Below, one piece after another: positions 1,401 through 20,168 of a stretch of 43,841 nucleotides of DNA. A program made the translations under genes and the position numbers. The notes under the pieces were generated by a model. That model had not been told where the DNA came from. It saw nothing but the letters and a program-made list of their open reading frames with translations, and did no database searches. The stretch is from Acidobacteriota bacterium (lineage in GTDB: Bacteria; Acidobacteriota; UBA4820; DSQY01), in assembly GCA_021787565.1 (NCBI GenBank), contig JAJYLT010000030.1, positions 1 through 43,841 of the forward strand, given 5' to 3'. The stretch's first letter is position 1. Each line of letters opens with the position of its first letter.

Positions 1401-2631
1401 TCAGGGCCTCTTGAATGGCATCCCACAGGGCCCTCGCGCAGTCCGTCTTGGAGGCTTCGGGGATGCGCTCTTCGGAGCCGTCCGGCCAGAAGAGGCTGAG
1501 GGCGTTGCGGTCCGACTCGAATCCCACCCCCTCCCTCGAAACGTCGTTGGCGGCCACCAGGTCCAGTCCCTTGCGCTTCAGCTTGGCCAGGGCGTTCTGT
1601 TTGAGGTCCTCGGTCTCGGCCGCGAAGCCGCACACGAACTGCCCCTTCCCCTTCAGGGGCACCAGTCCCTCAAGGATGTCTTCGGTGGGTTCGAGGTCGA
1701 GTTGCCACGCGCCCTTGCCCTTCTTCCTCTTGGAGGCGAGGGATTGCGCGGCCCGGTAGTCGGCGACGGCCGCGCACATGACGAGGACCTGGCACTCCCG
1801 GAAGCGGGCCCGCACGGCCTCGGCCATCTGGGCCGCCGTGACGACGGGGACGAAGTCGGCCCCCGACGGAGGCTCCAGCCCCGTGGGTCCTGAAACCAGC
1901 GTGACCTTGGCTCCTCGCTGGAGGGCCTCGCGGGCCACCGCGTAGCCCATCTTGCCGGAGGAGCGGTTGGAGAGGAACCGCACCGGATCCACGGGCTCCC
2001 TCGTGGGGCCCGCCGTCACCAGCACCTTCACACCCTGCAGCCCCCCCTCGCGCTCCAGAATGGCCACGGCCTCGTTCGCGACGGCCGCGGGTTCGGGCAG
2101 TCGCCCCTCGTCCACGTCGCCGCAGGCCAGGCTCCCCTTCGCGGGCTGAAGGACCACGTGCCCCCTTCCCTCCAGGATCCTCAGGTTCTCCTGCACGGCG
2201 GGGTGGCGCCACATGGAGCCGTTCATGGCCGGCACCAGGAGCACCGGCGCCCCGCGATTGGCCAGATAGTGGGTGGTCAGGAAGTCGTCGGCGATGCCCC
2301 GGGCGAGCTTCCCGAGGATGTTGGCCGTGGCGGGAGCCACCAGAAACAGCTCCTCCCACCGGGCCAGCTCGATGTGGGCGATGGATGGCTCGCCCGATCC
2401 CTCGAAGAGGTCCGTGATGACCGGATGGCCCGAGAGGGCCTGGAAGGTGACGGGCGCCACCATCCGCGCCGCGTGGGCCGTCATCACGACCTTCACCTCG
2501 CACCTGCGGTCCTGCAGGCGCCTCACCAGGTCACAGGCCTTGTAGATGCTGATACCGGCGCACACGCCCAGGGTGACCCGGTGTGTGCAGGCCGCGGGTC
2601 CCGACGGGGCAACGGGGTTCGTCTCAGCCAT
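1390..2631 (-). CDS. coaBC: Bifunctional phosphopantothenoylcysteine decarboxylase / phosphopantothenate-cysteine ligase
   Basis: CoaBC carries out two consecutive steps of coenzyme A synthesis: joining cysteine to 4'-phosphopantothenate, then decarboxylating the product. With the ATG at 2631 the protein is 413 aa, a normal length. The N-terminal flavoprotein half has PAMNGSMW and the substrate-lid motif SLACGDVDEGRL. The C-terminal ligase half begins at VLVTAGPTREPVDPVRFLSN, followed by RSSGKMGYA and AAVADYR. A longer reading from 2694 exists, but GGAGGG lies seven bases before 2631 and the family homology starts just after it. It is followed by the overlapping uracil-DNA glycosylase gene. 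The upstream neighbour is not rpoZ, which often precedes coaBC. Confidence 0.95.
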   Translation of the reverse strand: MAETNPVAPSGPAACTHRVTLGVCAGISIYKACDLVRRLQDRRCEVKVVMTAHAARMVAPVTFQALSGHPVITDLFEGSGEPSIAHIELARWEELFLVAPATANILGKLARGIADDFLTTHYLANRGAPVLLVPAMNGSMWRHPAVQENLRILEGRGHVVLQPAKGSLACGDVDEGRLPEPAAVANEAVAILEREGGLQGVKVLVTAGPTREPVDPVRFLSNRSSGKMGYAVAREALQRGAKVTLVSGPTGLEPPSGADFVPVVTAAQMAEAVRARFRECQVLVMCAAVADYRAAQSLASKRKKGKGAWQLDLEPTEDILEGLVPLKGKGQFVCGFAAETEDLKQNALAKLKRKGLDLVAANDVSREGVGFESDRNALSLFWPDGSEERIPEASKTDCARALWDAIQEALNGR

Positions 2632-2699
2632 GGCCAGCCCTCCCTGCTCGCGCCCGGCGTGAGTTCCTCTCCACCCTCCCGGCGCCCTCGTCACCCATT

Positions 2700-2870
2700 A
2701 TGGCATCCGCAGGGCTTTCCTCCAACGAGCTGGCCGGTCTGCTGCCGGGCCTCCACGCGACCCCGGCCTACAGGACGCTCCTCGAACAGACCCTCAAGGA
2801 CAAGGACGCCATCTCCCAGGTGGCGCGCTCCGCCGCCGAGGCCCTCAAGAAGGCGGGGCTGGCACCGTAA
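2700..2870 (+). CDS. Possible small protein, 56 aa, divergent from coaBC
   Basis: This ORF starts with ATG at 2700 and runs opposite to coaBC. It encodes a compact, helix-prone peptide with alternating hydrophobic and charged residues (LLEQTLKDKDAISQVA, then SAAEALKKAGLAP). The composition looks protein-like rather than random, but there is no good ribosome-binding site and no recognisable family. It occupies the position where a promoter for coaBC would be expected. Confidence 0.3.
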   Translation: MASAGLSSNELAGLLPGLHATPAYRTLLEQTLKDKDAISQVARSAAEALKKAGLAP

Positions 2871-2894
2871 CAAGCCATTTCAGCGCGCACTTGT

Positions 2895-2930
2895 GCGGTT
2901 TGCCTTCCGAAGCGAAGCGGAGGAAGGCGC
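2895..2930. repeat. REP-like hairpin repeat D, copy 2
   Basis: GCCTTCC and GGAAGGC pair around GAAGCGAAGCGGA. About 30 of 34 bases match the copy at 511-547. It lies directly next to repeat C in the coaBC/aspS spacer. Confidence 0.5.
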
Positions 2931-2937
2931 GTCCCGG

Positions 2938-3006
2938 CGCCGCGCCATCGGCGCGGCCAAGGCCCGGCCGGTGATCGGAGCCGGCAAAGCGGCCCTTTTT
3001 GGCCAG
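2938..3006. repeat. Repeat C, copy 1, with perfect hairpin
   Basis: It contains GCCGCGCC-ATC-GGCGCGGC (2939-2957), a perfect 8-bp stem with a 3-base loop. The hairpin and the following CCAAGGC-CGGCCGG are repeated at 9951-9980, and weaker similarity continues for about 40 bases. This spacer between aspS and the small plus-strand ORF holds no gene. Confidence 0.55.
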
Positions 3007-3020
3007 GCCTGGCGCGGCGG

Positions 3021-4787
3021 CTATTTCTCCTTGATCGCGATCCCCAGCTCGTCGAGCTGCTTGGCCTCCACGGTGCCGGGAGAACCGGTCATCAGGCAGA
3101 GGCCCGAGGTGGTTTTGGGGAAGGGGATCACGTCGCGGATGGAGTCGCATCCCAGCAGGAGCATCACCAGACGGTCGAAACCGAAGGCGATTCCCCCGTG
3201 GGGGGGAGTGCCGAAGCGGAAGGCGTCCAGGAGGAAGCCGAACTTCTCCTGCGCCTGCTCCTCCGAGAAGCCGAGGGCCTTGAACACCTTCCGCTGGACG
3301 TCGCCCCGGTGGATGCGGATGGAGCCGCCGCCGATCTCGTTGCCGTCCAGGACGAGGTCGTAGGCCAGCGCCTCCACCTTGCCGGGATCGCTCTCCAGCA
3401 GTGGCCAGTGCTCCTCGCGCGGCATGGTGAAGGGGTGGTGGCGGGCCATCCACCGCGCCTCTTCCGGGCTCCACTCGAACATGGGGAAGCGGTGCACCCA
3501 GAGCAGGTCGTGGCGGCCCTTCTCCACGAGCCCCAAGGCCCCGGCGAAGTGGAGCCGAAGCGCGCTCAGGCAGGCGCAGGCCGTGTCGTAGCCGTCGGCC
3601 ACGAAGAGCCCCAGGTCTCCTTCCTTGGCTTCAACGGCTTCCAGCATGGCCGCGGCGGGCCCCTCGCCGATGTGCTTCAGGGCGGCGCCGGCGAGCGCCC
3701 CGTCCCGGCGCATGAGGCTGACGACGCCCTTGCCCCCGAAGGGCTTCACGATGCCGTTCAGCTCGTCGATCTGCTTCCGGGAGATTCCCGCCATGCCGGG
3801 TACGGCCAGGCCCCGCACGCACCCGCACGCCTCCAGCGCTCCCTTGAAGACGCCGAATCCCGTCTCCCGGGCGATCTCGGAGACGGTGCCCAGCTCCAGG
3901 CCGAAGCGCGTGTCGGGCTTGTCGCACCCGTAGCGCTCCATGGCCTCGGCGTAGGTCAGCCGGGGGATGGACGGGGGCGGAGCGAGACCGGCCTCCTCGA
4001 AGAGAGCCGCCACCAGCCCCTCGGCCAGCGCCATGATGGCCTCCTCCGTGGGGAAGGACATCTCGATGTCGATCTGCGTGAACTCGAGCTGGCGGTCCGC
4101 TCGCAGGTCCTCGTCCCGGAAGCACCGGACCACCTGGAAGTAGCGGTCGAAGCCCGCCACCATGCAGAGCTGCTTGAAGAGCTGGGGCGACTGGGGAAGC
4201 GCGTAGAAGGAGCCCTGCCTGAGGCGGGAGGGGACCAGGAAGTCCCGCGCCCCCTCCGGCGTGGACTTGGTCAGGAAGGGGGTCTCGATCTCGATGAAGC
4301 CCCTCTCGCTGAGGTGCGAGCGCGTCCGCTGGGCCAGCCGGTGGCGGGCCACGATGCGGGCGTTCTGGAAGGGCCGCCGGAGGTCGAGGTAGCGGTAGGC
4401 GAGGCGCATCTCCTCGCTCACGAGCGCCTCGTCCTCCACCGCGAAGGGCGGGGTCTCCGCCTCGGCCAGGACCTCGAGCTCCGAGACCTCCACCTCCACC
4501 GACCCCGTCTCCATGTGGGGGTTCACGTCCTTCTCGCCGCGAGGTCGGACGGTTCCCCGCACCGCGATGACGTACTCGGGCCGCAACTCCTTGGCCAGGG
4601 CGAAGGCGGCGGGGGTCCGGTCCTCGGAGAAGACGAGCTGGCAGATTCCCTCCCGGTCCCGCAGGTCCACGAAGACGAGACTGCCCAGGTCCCGCCGGCG
4701 GCGCACCCACCCCTTGAGGATCAGCTCCTGGCCCAGGTGGTCCGGGCGCACCTGCCCGGCGCAGAGGCTCCTCTCAGGCAGGCTCAT
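3021..4787 (-). CDS. aspS: Aspartyl-tRNA synthetase
   Basis: AspS attaches aspartate to tRNA-Asp. The 588-aa protein is a full-length bacterial class II enzyme: an OB-fold anticodon-binding domain at the N-terminus (WVRRRRDLGSLVFVDL, residues 27-42), motif 2 (VVRCFRDEDLRADRQLEFTQ), the bacterial GAD insertion in the middle, and motif 3 (GGIAFGFDRLVMLLLG) near the end. Leu34 in RRRDLGSL matches the tRNA-Asp-specific enzymes such as E. coli rather than the non-discriminating type, which has His-Gly at this place. By analogy it should not charge tRNA-Asn. The ATG at 4787 overlaps the hisS stop (ATGA), so the two synthetases form an operon. Confidence 0.97.
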   Translation of the reverse strand: MSLPERSLCAGQVRPDHLGQELILKGWVRRRRDLGSLVFVDLRDREGICQLVFSEDRTPAAFALAKELRPEYVIAVRGTVRPRGEKDVNPHMETGSVEVEVSELEVLAEAETPPFAVEDEALVSEEMRLAYRYLDLRRPFQNARIVARHRLAQRTRSHLSERGFIEIETPFLTKSTPEGARDFLVPSRLRQGSFYALPQSPQLFKQLCMVAGFDRYFQVVRCFRDEDLRADRQLEFTQIDIEMSFPTEEAIMALAEGLVAALFEEAGLAPPPSIPRLTYAEAMERYGCDKPDTRFGLELGTVSEIARETGFGVFKGALEACGCVRGLAVPGMAGISRKQIDELNGIVKPFGGKGVVSLMRRDGALAGAALKHIGEGPAAAMLEAVEAKEGDLGLFVADGYDTACACLSALRLHFAGALGLVEKGRHDLLWVHRFPMFEWSPEEARWMARHHPFTMPREEHWPLLESDPGKVEALAYDLVLDGNEIGGGSIRIHRGDVQRKVFKALGFSEEQAQEKFGFLLDAFRFGTPPHGGIAFGFDRLVMLLLGCDSIRDVIPFPKTTSGLCLMTGSPGTVEAKQLDELGIAIKEK

Positions 4788-6034
4788 GCTCCCACCTCCT
4801 CAGCCAGGTGCCGCGACAGCTCCTCGCGCCCCAGCGCCCACTGCTCGCCCGTCGCCATGTCCTTCAGGGTGAAGCGCCCGGAGCCGGCCTCCTCTTCGCC
4901 CAGCAGAACCACGTAGCGCACGTTCATGCGGTCGGCGCGCTTGAGGCCCGACTTGAAGGAGCGGGCCGTGTGCTCCATCACCACCACGGCGCCCGCGGCC
5001 CTCAGATCCCGCGCCAGGGCGAGGGCGGCCCGGTAGGTCCCTCCGCCCGCCCAGGCGAGGTAGGTCCAGGGCAGGCGGGAGGCCGCCGGCTGCGGGAGGG
5101 CCATGAGGAGCCGCTCCATGCCGAGGGCCCAGCCGAAGCCCGCGCAGGCCGGACCGCCGATCTGCTCCAGGAGGCCGTCGTACCGCCCTCCCCCCAGCAG
5201 GGCGTCCTGGGCACCCAGGGCGCTGCTCGTCACCTCGAACACCGTCCGGGTGTAATAGTCCAGCCCCCGCACCAGCCTGGGGCGGGGCACGAAGGGCACG
5301 CGGAGGATCTCCAGCGCCTCCCGCAGGGCGTCGTGGTGTTCGGCGCAGGCCTCGCACAGGAAATCGGTGAAGCTCGGCGCCTTGTCCAGGTAGGGCTGGC
5401 AGGTGGGCACCTTGCAGTCCAGGACGCGCAGCGGGTTGGTCTCCAGGCGGCGGCGGCAGTCCCCGCACAGGTGCTGGGCCGAGCCCGCCAACTCCTCTTT
5501 TAGCGCGGACACATAGATCGGCCGGCAGTTGGGGCAGCCCACGGAGTTGACCTGAACGGCCGGCCCCATCACCCCCACGGCCCCCAGGAACTCCATCACC
5601 ATGGCGATGGTCTCGGCATCCACGCCCGGCGCGGGGTCGCCCAGGACCTCCGCGCCGATCTGGTGGAATTGCCGGTAGCGCCCCTTCTGCGGCCTCTCGT
5701 AGCGGAACTGCGGCCCGATGTAGTAGAGCCGCCCGTGGAGCGGCGACTCGTAGAGCCGGTGCTCCACCACGGCGCGCGCCACGCCGGCCGTGTTCTCGGG
5801 CCGCATGGTCAGGCTCCGCCCCTTCCGGTCCTGGAAGGTGTACATCTCCTTGGTCACGATGTCCGTCTCGTCGCCGATGCCCCGGACGAACAGCTCCGTC
5901 GGCTCCAGCACCGGCGTCCTTATCTCCGTGAAGCCGTAGCGCGCGAAGGTCTCGTGCGCCGCGCGCTCCACCGCCTGCCACCGCCCCACCTCGGGGAACA
6001 CCAAGTCCTGCGTGCCTTTCACCGCCGTGATCAT
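4784..6034 (-). CDS. hisS: Histidyl-tRNA synthetase
   Basis: HisS attaches histidine to tRNA-His. With the ATG at 6034 it is 416 aa, the usual size, starting MITAVKGTQDLVFPEVG. Visible class II elements are motif 1 (TEIRTPVLEPTELFVRG), motif 2 (GPQFRYERPQKGRYRQFHQ), the histidine-binding motif LVRGLDYYTRTVFEV and motif 3 (GFGWALGMERLLM). A cysteine-rich insert (CPNC, CGDC) suggests a bound zinc. The frame is open further upstream to 6187, but GGAGG four bases before 6034 and the family alignment decide the start. aspS follows with a four-base overlap. Confidence 0.97.
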   Translation of the reverse strand: MITAVKGTQDLVFPEVGRWQAVERAAHETFARYGFTEIRTPVLEPTELFVRGIGDETDIVTKEMYTFQDRKGRSLTMRPENTAGVARAVVEHRLYESPLHGRLYYIGPQFRYERPQKGRYRQFHQIGAEVLGDPAPGVDAETIAMVMEFLGAVGVMGPAVQVNSVGCPNCRPIYVSALKEELAGSAQHLCGDCRRRLETNPLRVLDCKVPTCQPYLDKAPSFTDFLCEACAEHHDALREALEILRVPFVPRPRLVRGLDYYTRTVFEVTSSALGAQDALLGGGRYDGLLEQIGGPACAGFGWALGMERLLMALPQPAASRLPWTYLAWAGGGTYRAALALARDLRAAGAVVVMEHTARSFKSGLKRADRMNVRYVVLLGEEEAGSGRFTLKDMATGEQWALGREELSRHLAEEVGA

Positions 6035-6188
6035 GGGACCTCCAGAGGGCCAATTGTAGCATTTTCCAATGGACAGCTCGGCCTCCAAGCAACTCGCGGC
6101 AAAGGAAGCAAGAACCTCCATGGTCCTGCAAATGTCCCGAACTTTGAAGGGCTGCCTCCATCCCGTCAAGGTCATAGGGCCACCCAAG

Positions 6189-6310
6189 TCCCGCGATGGA
6201 ATTTGGCGCGTAGGAGCGCCGCCCCCGGCGCGACGATGGGCCGTTCACGGGAACCGCATCGTCTCAGCGGGTTCCCCCGGGTTCGCGGCGAGGCGCCGCT
6301 CCTACAGAGG
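6189..6310. repeat. REP-doublet (BIME-like) repeat A, copy 1
   Basis: The arms are inverted: GTAGGAGCGCCGCC at 6210-6223 and GGCGCCGCTCCTAC at 6292-6305. An inner inverted pair, GGGAACCGC and GCGGGTTCCC, surrounds ATCGTCTCA. A second copy at 20029-20145 is nearly identical over about 115 bases. The GTAGGAGCG core resembles REP sequences known from gammaproteobacteria, which are mobilised by RAYT transposases. No RAYT gene is visible here. Confidence 0.75.
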
Positions 6311-6471
6311 AGGCCGCCCTTGGGAGCCAGTCCCAGCCGCTTCAAGAGGCTCTCGAAGGAGAGGGCCAGCTCCTTGAAACCCAAGTGGCACAGGCCGTGA
6401 AAGGCCAGCCGGTCGGCTACGACTCCGGGAAGGATCACCTCCGCAGCCTCCGTGGCCTGCTTCCAAAGCCT
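6311..6471 (-). other. Open tail of the remnant region, unassigned
   Basis: The frame after the peptidase fragment stays open, reading RLWKQATEAAEVILPGVV and FKELALSFESLLKRLGLAP, into repeat A. I do not recognise the family. It may be a third gene fragment joined to the peptidase remnant. Confidence 0.3.
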
Positions 6472-6602
6472 CAGCTCATGGGCGAGGCTGAAGTGCATGC
6501 GCCAGGCCGGCTCGCCCTCCCGGAGGCAGATGGCGGAGCCAAAGTCGCCCTTCGCCGTGAGGGCGGAGCCCCCTTGGATCGGAGCAAAGAAAATCTTGAT
6601 GC
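6472..6602 (-). pseudogene. ImmA/IrrE-like metallopeptidase fragment
   Basis: The translation IKIFFAPIQGGSAL...FGSAICL...WRMHFSLAHEL matches the core pattern of ImmA/IrrE (DUF955) zinc peptidases, in which a strand ending in an isoleucine-rich segment leads to the RxxFSLAHELxH motif. The second zinc-binding His is missing: after HEL the reading becomes RLW. The N-terminal and C-terminal parts of the family are also absent. It is joined in frame to a helicase remnant at about 6602. Such peptidases usually pair with XRE regulators in phage, toxin-antitoxin or defence contexts. The call rests on about 42 residues. Confidence 0.5.
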
Positions 6603-6920
6603 CCGTCGTGTTGACGACGCAAATCAGGTTGGTCTTGGCGGCCAGATAGTCCACGGTCTTGCGAACCTTCTTGAGTTCTTGGTCGAGCGACTGCCCGTAG
6701 GTGTGATGGGCCTCGTCGGAAAAGACGGCGAGGTGGGGAAGGCTGGCGACGGATTGCAGGCGGAGATTGGCCACCTCCGACCTCGCCTCGTCCTCACGCT
6801 CCCGGCTGAACAGCCCCCCCAAATCTGATTTCCGAATGGTCTCTTTCTGGATAGGGCCATGGCGAACTCCGTGGCCATGATTGCCCCGATGAGAATGGTC
6901 TTTCCAGCAGCCTGTTTACA
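6603..6920 (-). pseudogene. DEAH-box helicase remnant (type III restriction / SF2 family) with internal deletion
   Basis: Two helicase pieces lie side by side. The first, at 6855-6920, reads CKQAAGKTILIGAIMATEFA and is helicase motif I. The second, in another frame from about 6855 to 6603, reads QKETIRKSDLGGLFS, then LPHLAVFSDEAHHTYGQSL (motif II, DEAH) and TNLICVVNTTG (motif III region). In intact relatives I would expect roughly 80 residues between the pieces, and several hundred residues after NTTG, where TPY normally follows. Both are missing, so the gene is dead. The ATG at 6822 is internal to the remnant and is not a real start. It sits between aroA and hisS with no intact partner gene. 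Confidence 0.75.
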
Positions 6921-7033
6921 TACCGCGAGAAACCGGAACGGCGGGATCCCGTGCCAGCAGCCCTTCGAAGCATGCCACGGGATGACGGCCGAGGAAGGGG
7001 CGCTTCTCGACGCTGGGGCCAGACCCTGCCGGG

Positions 7034-8308
7034 TCAGACGAGGAGCCCCTCCAGAACCTCGAAGAAGTCCGGGAAGGACTTGGCCACGCAGGCGGGATCG
7101 GTGATCTCCACGCCCGGGATCGCGAGCCCCATGACGGCGAAGGCCATGGCCATGCGGTGGTCGCCGTGGGGGTCGAGGCGGGCCGGGCGGTAGGCGGGGG
7201 CCGGCACGACGGTGAGGCGGTCCGATTCCACGAGCATGCACCCCCCGAGGGCCGTGACGGCATCGGCCAGTACCGCCAGCCGGTCGCTCTCCTTGAAGCG
7301 CAGGTGCCCGACCCCCGAAAGGACGGTGGGAGAGGGCGCGAAGAGGGCCACGGCCACCAGGGGAGGCACCAGGTCCGGGCACTCGCGCACGTCGGCTTCC
7401 AGCCCGCTGGCGGGCCGGCCCGCCAGGGCGATCCCCTCCTCCGATTCGAGGATCCGGCACCCCATCGCCTCCAGGTGGTCCGCGAAGGCCGCGTCGCCTT
7501 GGAGCATGCGCCGCCGCATCCCGGCCACCGTAACCTCGCCGCCGGTCACGGCCGCGGCGGCCAGCAGAAAGGCCGCAGCCGAGGTGTCGGGTTCGATCTC
7601 CACCTCCGCTGCCCGGTAGAGGCCCGGCTCCACCTCCCACCACCCTCCTGCCGCCTCGTGCACCTCAGCCCCGAAACGGCCCATGAGCGCCACGGTCATG
7701 CGCGCATAGGCCCCGGACACCAACTGCGACGCGTGGAGCCGAACGAGGCCCCGCGCCAGGGGGGCGGCCAGGAGCATCCCGGAGACGAACTGGCTGCTGA
7801 TGGAGGAGTCCACCTCCATCGCTCCGCCCTCCCACCTCCGCCCTTCGATCACCACCGGCGGGAAGCCCTCTCGGTCGGCGAAACGCAGCACCGCGCCCGT
7901 CCCGGCCAGGGTTCGGGCCAGGGGACCGACGGGCCGGCGGCGGAGCTGCGAATCTCCATCCAGGGTGAAGCTGCCCTCCGAGGCGGCGCAGACGGCCATG
8001 AGCAGGCGGAGGGTGGTACCGCTGGCGGCGCAGTGAAGGGGCGAGTCCGGCGGGCTGAGACGGCCCGAAGTTCCGCGGACCGTGAGGCGCTCGCCGCCCT
8101 CGGTTCGGGCCCCCAGGGCCCGGATGCAGGCCAGCGTCGCCCGAACGTCCTGGGCATCGTGCACGGGGTGGATCTCGCTCTTCCCTTCGGCGAGGGCCCC
8201 AAGGATCAGAGCTCGGTGGGCGATGGATTTGGAGGTAGGGACGCGGCATGGGCCGCGGGCCGCCCGGCCGCTCGGGACCACGTAGGGATCACAGATCGCG
8301 CTGCTCAT
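7034..8308 (-). CDS. aroA: 3-phosphoshikimate 1-carboxyvinyltransferase (EPSP synthase)
   Basis: AroA joins phosphoenolpyruvate to shikimate-3-phosphate in chorismate and aromatic amino acid synthesis. With the ATG at 8308 the protein is 424 aa. Family landmarks are PTSKSIAHRAL near the N-terminus (shikimate-3-phosphate binding), CAASGTTLRLL (PEP-binding loop), the catalytic Asp in EPDTSAAAFLLA, RFKESDRLA and the terminal GDHRMAMAFAVMGL. A longer frame to 8413 is open, but the homology starts at SSAICDPYVVPSG, and GAGG lies four bases before 8308. No other shikimate gene is adjacent. Downstream on the same strand is the helicase remnant. Confidence 0.96.
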   Translation of the reverse strand: MSSAICDPYVVPSGRAARGPCRVPTSKSIAHRALILGALAEGKSEIHPVHDAQDVRATLACIRALGARTEGGERLTVRGTSGRLSPPDSPLHCAASGTTLRLLMAVCAASEGSFTLDGDSQLRRRPVGPLARTLAGTGAVLRFADREGFPPVVIEGRRWEGGAMEVDSSISSQFVSGMLLAAPLARGLVRLHASQLVSGAYARMTVALMGRFGAEVHEAAGGWWEVEPGLYRAAEVEIEPDTSAAAFLLAAAAVTGGEVTVAGMRRRMLQGDAAFADHLEAMGCRILESEEGIALAGRPASGLEADVRECPDLVPPLVAVALFAPSPTVLSGVGHLRFKESDRLAVLADAVTALGGCMLVESDRLTVVPAPAYRPARLDPHGDHRMAMAFAVMGLAIPGVEITDPACVAKSFPDFFEVLEGLLV

Positions 8309-19933: not shown

Positions 19934-20025
19934 CGTGTCACCTCCCGGGCACCGGCCGCGATAGCGGTGCGCGCTCCTATTGTACCCTCGGGCCCGAGGG
20001 GCAGGCGAGAGGGGACGCACCCCCC

Positions 20026-20168
20026 AATTCCGCGATGGAATTTGGCGCGTAGGAGCGCCGCCCCCGGCGCGATGGGCCGTTCACGGGAACCGCATCGTCT
20101 CAGCGGGTTCCTCCGGATCGCGGCGAGGCGCCGCTCCTACAGAGGGGTTGCGCCTCCATCGCGGAATT
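20026..20168. repeat. REP-doublet repeat A, copy 2, with 14-bp flanking inverted repeat
   Basis: The core at 20029-20145 matches 6189-6310. Inverted arms are GTAGGAGCG at 20049-20057 and GGCGCCGCTCCTAC at 20127-20140. In this copy only, AATTCCGCGATGGA (20026-20039) is repeated exactly in inverted orientation at 20155-20168, which gives the whole element MITE-like ends. It lies between two divergent genes. Confidence 0.75.

Follow-up and report, generated by a model that had tools for sequence, protein, structure and literature searches.

An open reading frame between aroA and hisS of an Acidobacteriota bacterium is very probably the remnant of a restriction operon

Results

The window analysed here, the whole 43,841-nucleotide stretch of contig JAJYLT010000030.1 (assembly GCA_021787565.1), carries aroA (7034..8302) and hisS (4784..6034) on its minus strand, with 91% and 94% protein identity, respectively, to the genes of G001, the sole other member of the genus. 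Between them, on the same strand, lies a frame that is open over 247 codons (6915-6172). It has no ATG within its first 139 codons, and its earliest start, a TTG inside old helicase coding sequence, begins a 216-codon reading frame (6172..6822) that runs through the pieces B, C, D and E described below into a dispersed repeat and that we judge not to be a gene. From about residue 200 of 247 onwards (the last ~45 codons) the frame is this repeat; the C-terminal end of the 216-residue reading frame named in a preliminary description, made from the letters of the window, is repeat sequence rather than protein. Profile searches were nearly silent: Pfam returned no match at E<=1 for the whole frame or its halves, the one NCBIfam match, to a restriction endonuclease family, stayed below threshold (E 0.02; first half, E 0.004), and PADLOC returned weak matches of the whole frame to the ImmA/IrrE-type models RmrA (E 0.004) and capP (E 0.026) and none with the halves. 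The evidence presented here was obtained by comparing genomes.

A search of 100 genomes, the own genome included, gave matches in four (G000, G005, G015 and G038). The match in G005 ("Acidobacteria bacterium BP8.bin17"; loci L023 and L121), which belongs to another genus of the same family as the source, falls into three separate reading frames on one contig, at coordinates that agree with JAKBES010000190.1 (L023, 7344 bases). L023 starts inside aroA, and the genes of an operon follow directly after it. The first encodes a complete Res-type helicase of 883 aa (1429-4080; PF04851 above cut-off) with a C-terminal TnsA-like nuclease domain that scores below the Pfam cut-off (E 3e-4); used as a query against PADLOC 2.0.0, this helicase gave no match at E<=0.01. 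The second encodes a 391-aa protein (from 4150, stop at 5325) that joins an HTH to a Peptidase_M78 (ImmA/IrrE) domain (HTH_3, 2e-9; Peptidase_M78, 6e-12), the third a 192-aa PIN-like protein (5294-5872), assigned by its acidic-residue pattern, and the fourth an N6/N4 DNA methyltransferase (N6_N4_Mtase; from 5859) that runs off the contig end. The last 75 bases of L023 recur exactly as the opening 75 bases of C280 (L121), another contig of G005, on which the methyltransferase frame stops at 665, with hisS starting near 2894. If this overlap marks neighbouring contigs, it places the operon between aroA and hisS, and G005 holds a complete four-gene operon there. The preliminary description had predicted an ancestral locus with both a helicase and a peptidase gene in related genomes, and G005 supplies one, with the genes intact and in order directly after aroA. 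In the gap between operon and hisS of G005, short GGGAAAT/ATTTCCC-type motifs are spaced over ~500 bases (L121:1000-1500).

In an alignment of the PIN-like protein, E43, E101 and D122 are invariant in four sequences and D11 in the three that cover the position; these four acidic residues of the 192-aa protein make up what we take to be the PIN pattern. No PIN match for the family was found in Pfam, PHROGs or the PDB, and a single-sequence AlphaFold model was unusable (pLDDT 41). No relatives were found in plasmids and phages by tblastn, and when viral contigs were scanned with the alignment, 68 pattern matches were obtained, none confirmed as a relative. The HTH-M78 and PIN-like pair also stands alone, with no matches to res or mod (L023 queries), at L133:4522-6550 and L134:1177-3067, the latter a 3-kb contig that shows the surroundings of the pair in part.

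Compared with L023 by blastn, the window interval yields five colinear pieces (6908-6311, minus strand) from three of the four operon genes, with order and orientation kept and the methyltransferase gone. Piece A (6855..6908) holds Res helicase motif I (GKTILIGAIMATEFAM; 83% DNA identity to L023 1852-1905, E 5e-11), and piece B (6602..6852) holds the motif II region, from SDEAHHTYG to VVNTTG (77% to 2146-2396, E 1e-49; 81% protein identity). Piece C (6473..6604) is the first half of the M78 domain, as far as the HEL of HEXXH (73% to 4674-4805, E 5e-17; 84% protein identity over 44 aa). Pieces D (6410..6481) and E (6311..6417) are N-terminal and C-terminal parts of the PIN-like gene; E is 80% identical to 5654-5761 (aligned from 6417 to 6310, E 6e-23; 81% protein identity over 36 aa), and D is the weakest piece (73% to 5347-5418, E 2e-4; 71% protein identity over 24 aa) but has its place between C and E. 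A sixth piece, in which 19/19 bases at 6324-6306 match the start of the methyltransferase gene, was first accepted and then rejected: the PIN-like gene ends in the same 12 bases, and the final 5 open the dispersed repeat in its other copies, so that 2 bases remain as evidence.

The remnant lacks the PD-(D/E)XK nuclease domain of Res and a complete set of SF2 helicase motifs; of the latter it keeps pieces with motif II and, in another frame, motif I. The second His of HEXXH is lost (HELRL in the window, HELFH in L023), and of the four acidic positions conserved in the PIN-like protein three are missing.

These matches confirm the core of the preliminary description, namely that a helicase remnant and an ImmA/IrrE fragment form a chimera (helicase and M78 matches from L023 to 6852-6602 and 6604-6473), and that VVNTTG passes into IKIFFAPI in frame, here in both genes' own frames. 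Motifs I and II had been described as joined after a loss of about 80 residues, which agrees with 80 codons on the L023 scale, but motif I is out of frame. The stretch IKIFFAPI...FSLAHEL, ascribed to the peptidase, is M78 up to HEL; beyond FSLAHEL comes a third gene, in two pieces, that had been missed. Accordingly, the proposed weld and its site between aroA and hisS both hold, while the number of genes welded rises from two to three.

Pieces A and B are 240 bases (80 codons) apart in L023, and because the window keeps 2 bases between them, motif I stands in another frame than motif II. At the joins B-C, C-D and D-E the reading frame continues in that of the gene that follows; at A-B it does not. 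With L023 (~75% identical) as a proxy for the true ancestor, which makes the break-point runs approximate, the break points share 3 bases at B/C (GGG, where B and C overlap), 6 at C/D (CACGAG, inside the His-Glu-Leu of both genes), 8 at D/E (GCCGACCG) and 0 at A/B. The C/D overlap in the window is about 9 bases, of which 6 are identical in L023. Among 400,000 random break-point pairs in L023, runs of at least 3, 6 and 8 bases had probabilities of 0.061, 0.0023 and 0.00023. When break points were shifted by up to 30 bases each, 204/3660 pairs reached 3 at B/C, and 0/3660 reached 6 at C/D or 8 at D/E. Fisher's method over all four joins, with A/B entered as p=1, gave p=3e-5. The 6- and 8-bp runs at C/D and D/E are far beyond chance, and the break-point runs appear to be the signature that deletions between short direct repeats leave behind. 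The arrangement of the pieces implies a minimum of four internal deletions.

Both edges of the remnant adjoin dispersed repeats. The repeat that ends the open frame is a copy of family 2 (6182..6310, minus strand; 92-96% identical to the seven best other copies compared), and a protein-level search with the whole frame gave 138 further matches in the own genome (E<=1), nearly all of them to this repeat end (last ~45 residues). Where it meets piece E, its 5' end lacks ~25 bases that seven other copies have (six loci and one copy at ~20 kb in the window), and for that reason it was probably cut by a deletion that took what remained of the PIN-like gene together with all of the methyltransferase gene. 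Family 2 repeats are ~150-170 bases long with inverted GTAGGAGCG...CGCTCCTAC, and copies lie at 6182-6310 and about 20020-20145 of the window. On the other side, where the aroA alignment with L023 (75% DNA identity in the final 164 bases) reaches 7032, with the stop at 7034, a short dispersed palindromic repeat of family 1 (6939..6987, minus strand; 90% to L138) lies between aroA and the remnant, separated from piece A by 30 unassigned bases. A 130-base query (6905-7034) gave, at E<=1, 23 matches elsewhere in the own genome. About 20 family 1 copies were seen in G000, several as inverted pairs 20-30 bases apart.

Over 196 codons, the window and L023 differ with a dN of 0.14 and a dS of 1.33 (ratio 0.11; dS is saturated for many pairs), and within the pieces there are zero stops and zero frameshifts relative to L023. 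Of 55 columns that are >=90% conserved in 21 relatives, picked from the best 80 loci for ungapped alignment, the helicase piece differs at 1, and the relatives themselves differ at 0-6. As the pieces still show the substitution pattern of functional genes, we infer that their decay is young compared with the divergence, that they were under selection until recently and that DNA has since been lost rather than point lesions gained.

At the protein level, the helicase piece resembles a Nitrospirota locus (L016, 92% over 83 codons) more than it does L023 (83%), and among 83 loci scanned with phmmer (E<=1e-3; the best 80 of 127 from tblastn and three from the 100-genome search) the M78 and PIN-like genes occur in L023 only. 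On these two grounds, horizontal movement of the operon is likely. The operons of the window and of G005 may be separate arrivals at aroA-hisS rather than one inherited copy.

In G001 the aroA-hisS interval holds a different gene, and no intermediate stage of decay was seen there; by eye, its occupant (L115) is a convergent methyltransferase-like gene. The interval in G002 (L116) holds three genes that, by eye, resemble toxin-antitoxin genes. Just upstream of hisS in G005 (L121:2330-2640), fragments resemble a HigB/HigA-type pair when compared by eye with the longer L116 frames, and they look like another decaying module. The content of the interval differs in all four genomes seen across it (window, G001, G002 and G005), and the interval may be an insertion hot spot.

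Among the best 80 of 127 loci, 63 carry a related methyltransferase gene downstream of, and on the same strand as, the helicase gene, and 15 of the other 17 loci end within 1500 bases of the helicase. The gap between res and mod exceeds 700 bases in 19 of the 63 (measured on stop-to-stop frames, hence approximate). Ten gap proteins from nine chosen loci were assigned by Pfam as five Fic proteins (that of L084 on the opposite strand), one HepT-like protein, two DUF1828/DUF6978 proteins from one locus, one AAA_15/AAA_21 and one AAA_14 protein. Examples of such cargo, among L016-L095, are found at L020:7962-9026, L037:7017-8255, L043:7886-9046, L057:2861-4054, L019:8197-8574 and L092:7793-10051. 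The res-mod space in intact relatives holds variable, often toxin-like cargo, which suggests that toxin-like modules are exchanged there. The M78/PIN pair in L023 fills this slot, which explains why a helicase gene and an ImmA/IrrE gene are neighbours. No account of toxin-like genes in the res-mod space turned up in a literature search; with most subscription journals outside the search, this is weak evidence.

The whole fusion has no independent homologue in the best 80 of 127 loci (tblastn) or in the 100 genomes. Of these 80 loci, 79 match in the helicase part only or through an ordinary helicase continuation, and in L023 the matches fall into separate genes. Matches were also obtained to two plasmid records, each confined to the helicase part. 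Independent homologues of the whole protein were what the preliminary description had named as evidence against its own reading, and the best 80 of 127 loci hold none.

Discussion

We consider it very likely that the remnant is a recent pseudogene of a restriction operon, lost piecemeal by serial short-repeat deletions, and that its open frame encodes no working protein. A phage-defence operon of the form res - [HTH-ImmA/IrrE + PIN-like] - mod would once have stood between aroA and hisS. Slippage or end-joining between short repeats at the break points would have produced the deletions, and a further deletion would have taken the methyltransferase, run into the dispersed repeat and truncated it. 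The 216-codon frame would then be an accident of these deletions.

Alternatively, the deletions could have made a new small chimeric protein that was kept by selection, as might be argued from the three of four joins that fall in the downstream frame, the 247 open codons and the dN/dS of 0.11 against L023. However, at least three in-frame joins of four are expected by chance in 11% of cases, and a low dN/dS can date from before the decay. Such a protein would also have to do without an ATG in its first 139 codons, starting from a TTG in old helicase sequence, and without the catalytic residues of all three parents, which are missing or out of frame; its last ~45 codons would be a genome-wide repeat, and none of the relatives returned (from 100 genomes and the best 80 of 127 loci) carries the fusion. 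We therefore regard a selected chimera as very unlikely. That the joins are assembly artefacts is less credible still: the genome is a 77-contig draft, but the pieces all follow the order of one operon, another assembly has that operon at the same aroA-hisS site, and the joins, which are 6 kb away from the end of the contig, coincide with short stretches of shared sequence within genes. Finally, a genuine two-domain family of helicase-peptidase fusions, to which tblastn alignments of L024, L025 and L076 spanning residues 21 to 195-198 might point, has almost no probability left and is refuted within the collections searched, since these alignments follow the helicase to VVNTTG and then continue as gapped chance similarity to the normal helicase continuation.

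Within the reading of the remnant as a deleted restriction operon, the in-frame joins could themselves have been selected: as long as mod was needed for protection of the chromosome, a deletion would have been tolerated only if the overlapping genes could still be translated through in the direction of mod. We think this improbable; if true, the remnant would record the selected order in which a restriction operon was dismantled.

The remnant is a clear case of an ordinary process, and an unusually legible one: with a compact fossil and an intact counterpart at the same locus, the position and break points of every deletion can be read off. The case is a warning, too: where a genome is GC-rich, an open frame can be long and yet consist of the pieces of three dead genes and a repeat, and such a frame should receive no protein annotation. 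The res-mod space, as a place of exchange for toxin-like modules, may merit a study of its own.

A multigene deletion can fuse two genes into a functional chimera, as reported by Gallant et al. (2020, PMC7671302). The likeness to that case is that deletion joins two genes in frame; the present fusion differs in showing no sign of function and in having accumulated several deletions.

Fused COG2856-Xre proteins occur in operons with PIN or RelE toxins, according to Makarova et al. (2009, PMC2701414). The cargo of L023 resembles the Xre-COG2856 (ImmA/IrrE)-PIN modules described there in having an HTH fused to a HEXXH peptidase, followed by a PIN-like gene. In contrast to those modules, the PIN identity here comes from an acidic-residue pattern rather than a profile match, and the pair is nested between res and mod, with fragments of it kept in the window.

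The L023 operon as a whole is like a type III restriction-modification system in combining Res (a ResIII helicase, with a TnsA-like nuclease below cut-off) with an N6_N4_Mtase, and the window copy differs in being without any complete gene. In classical type III systems mod precedes res, whereas the order here is res and then mod.
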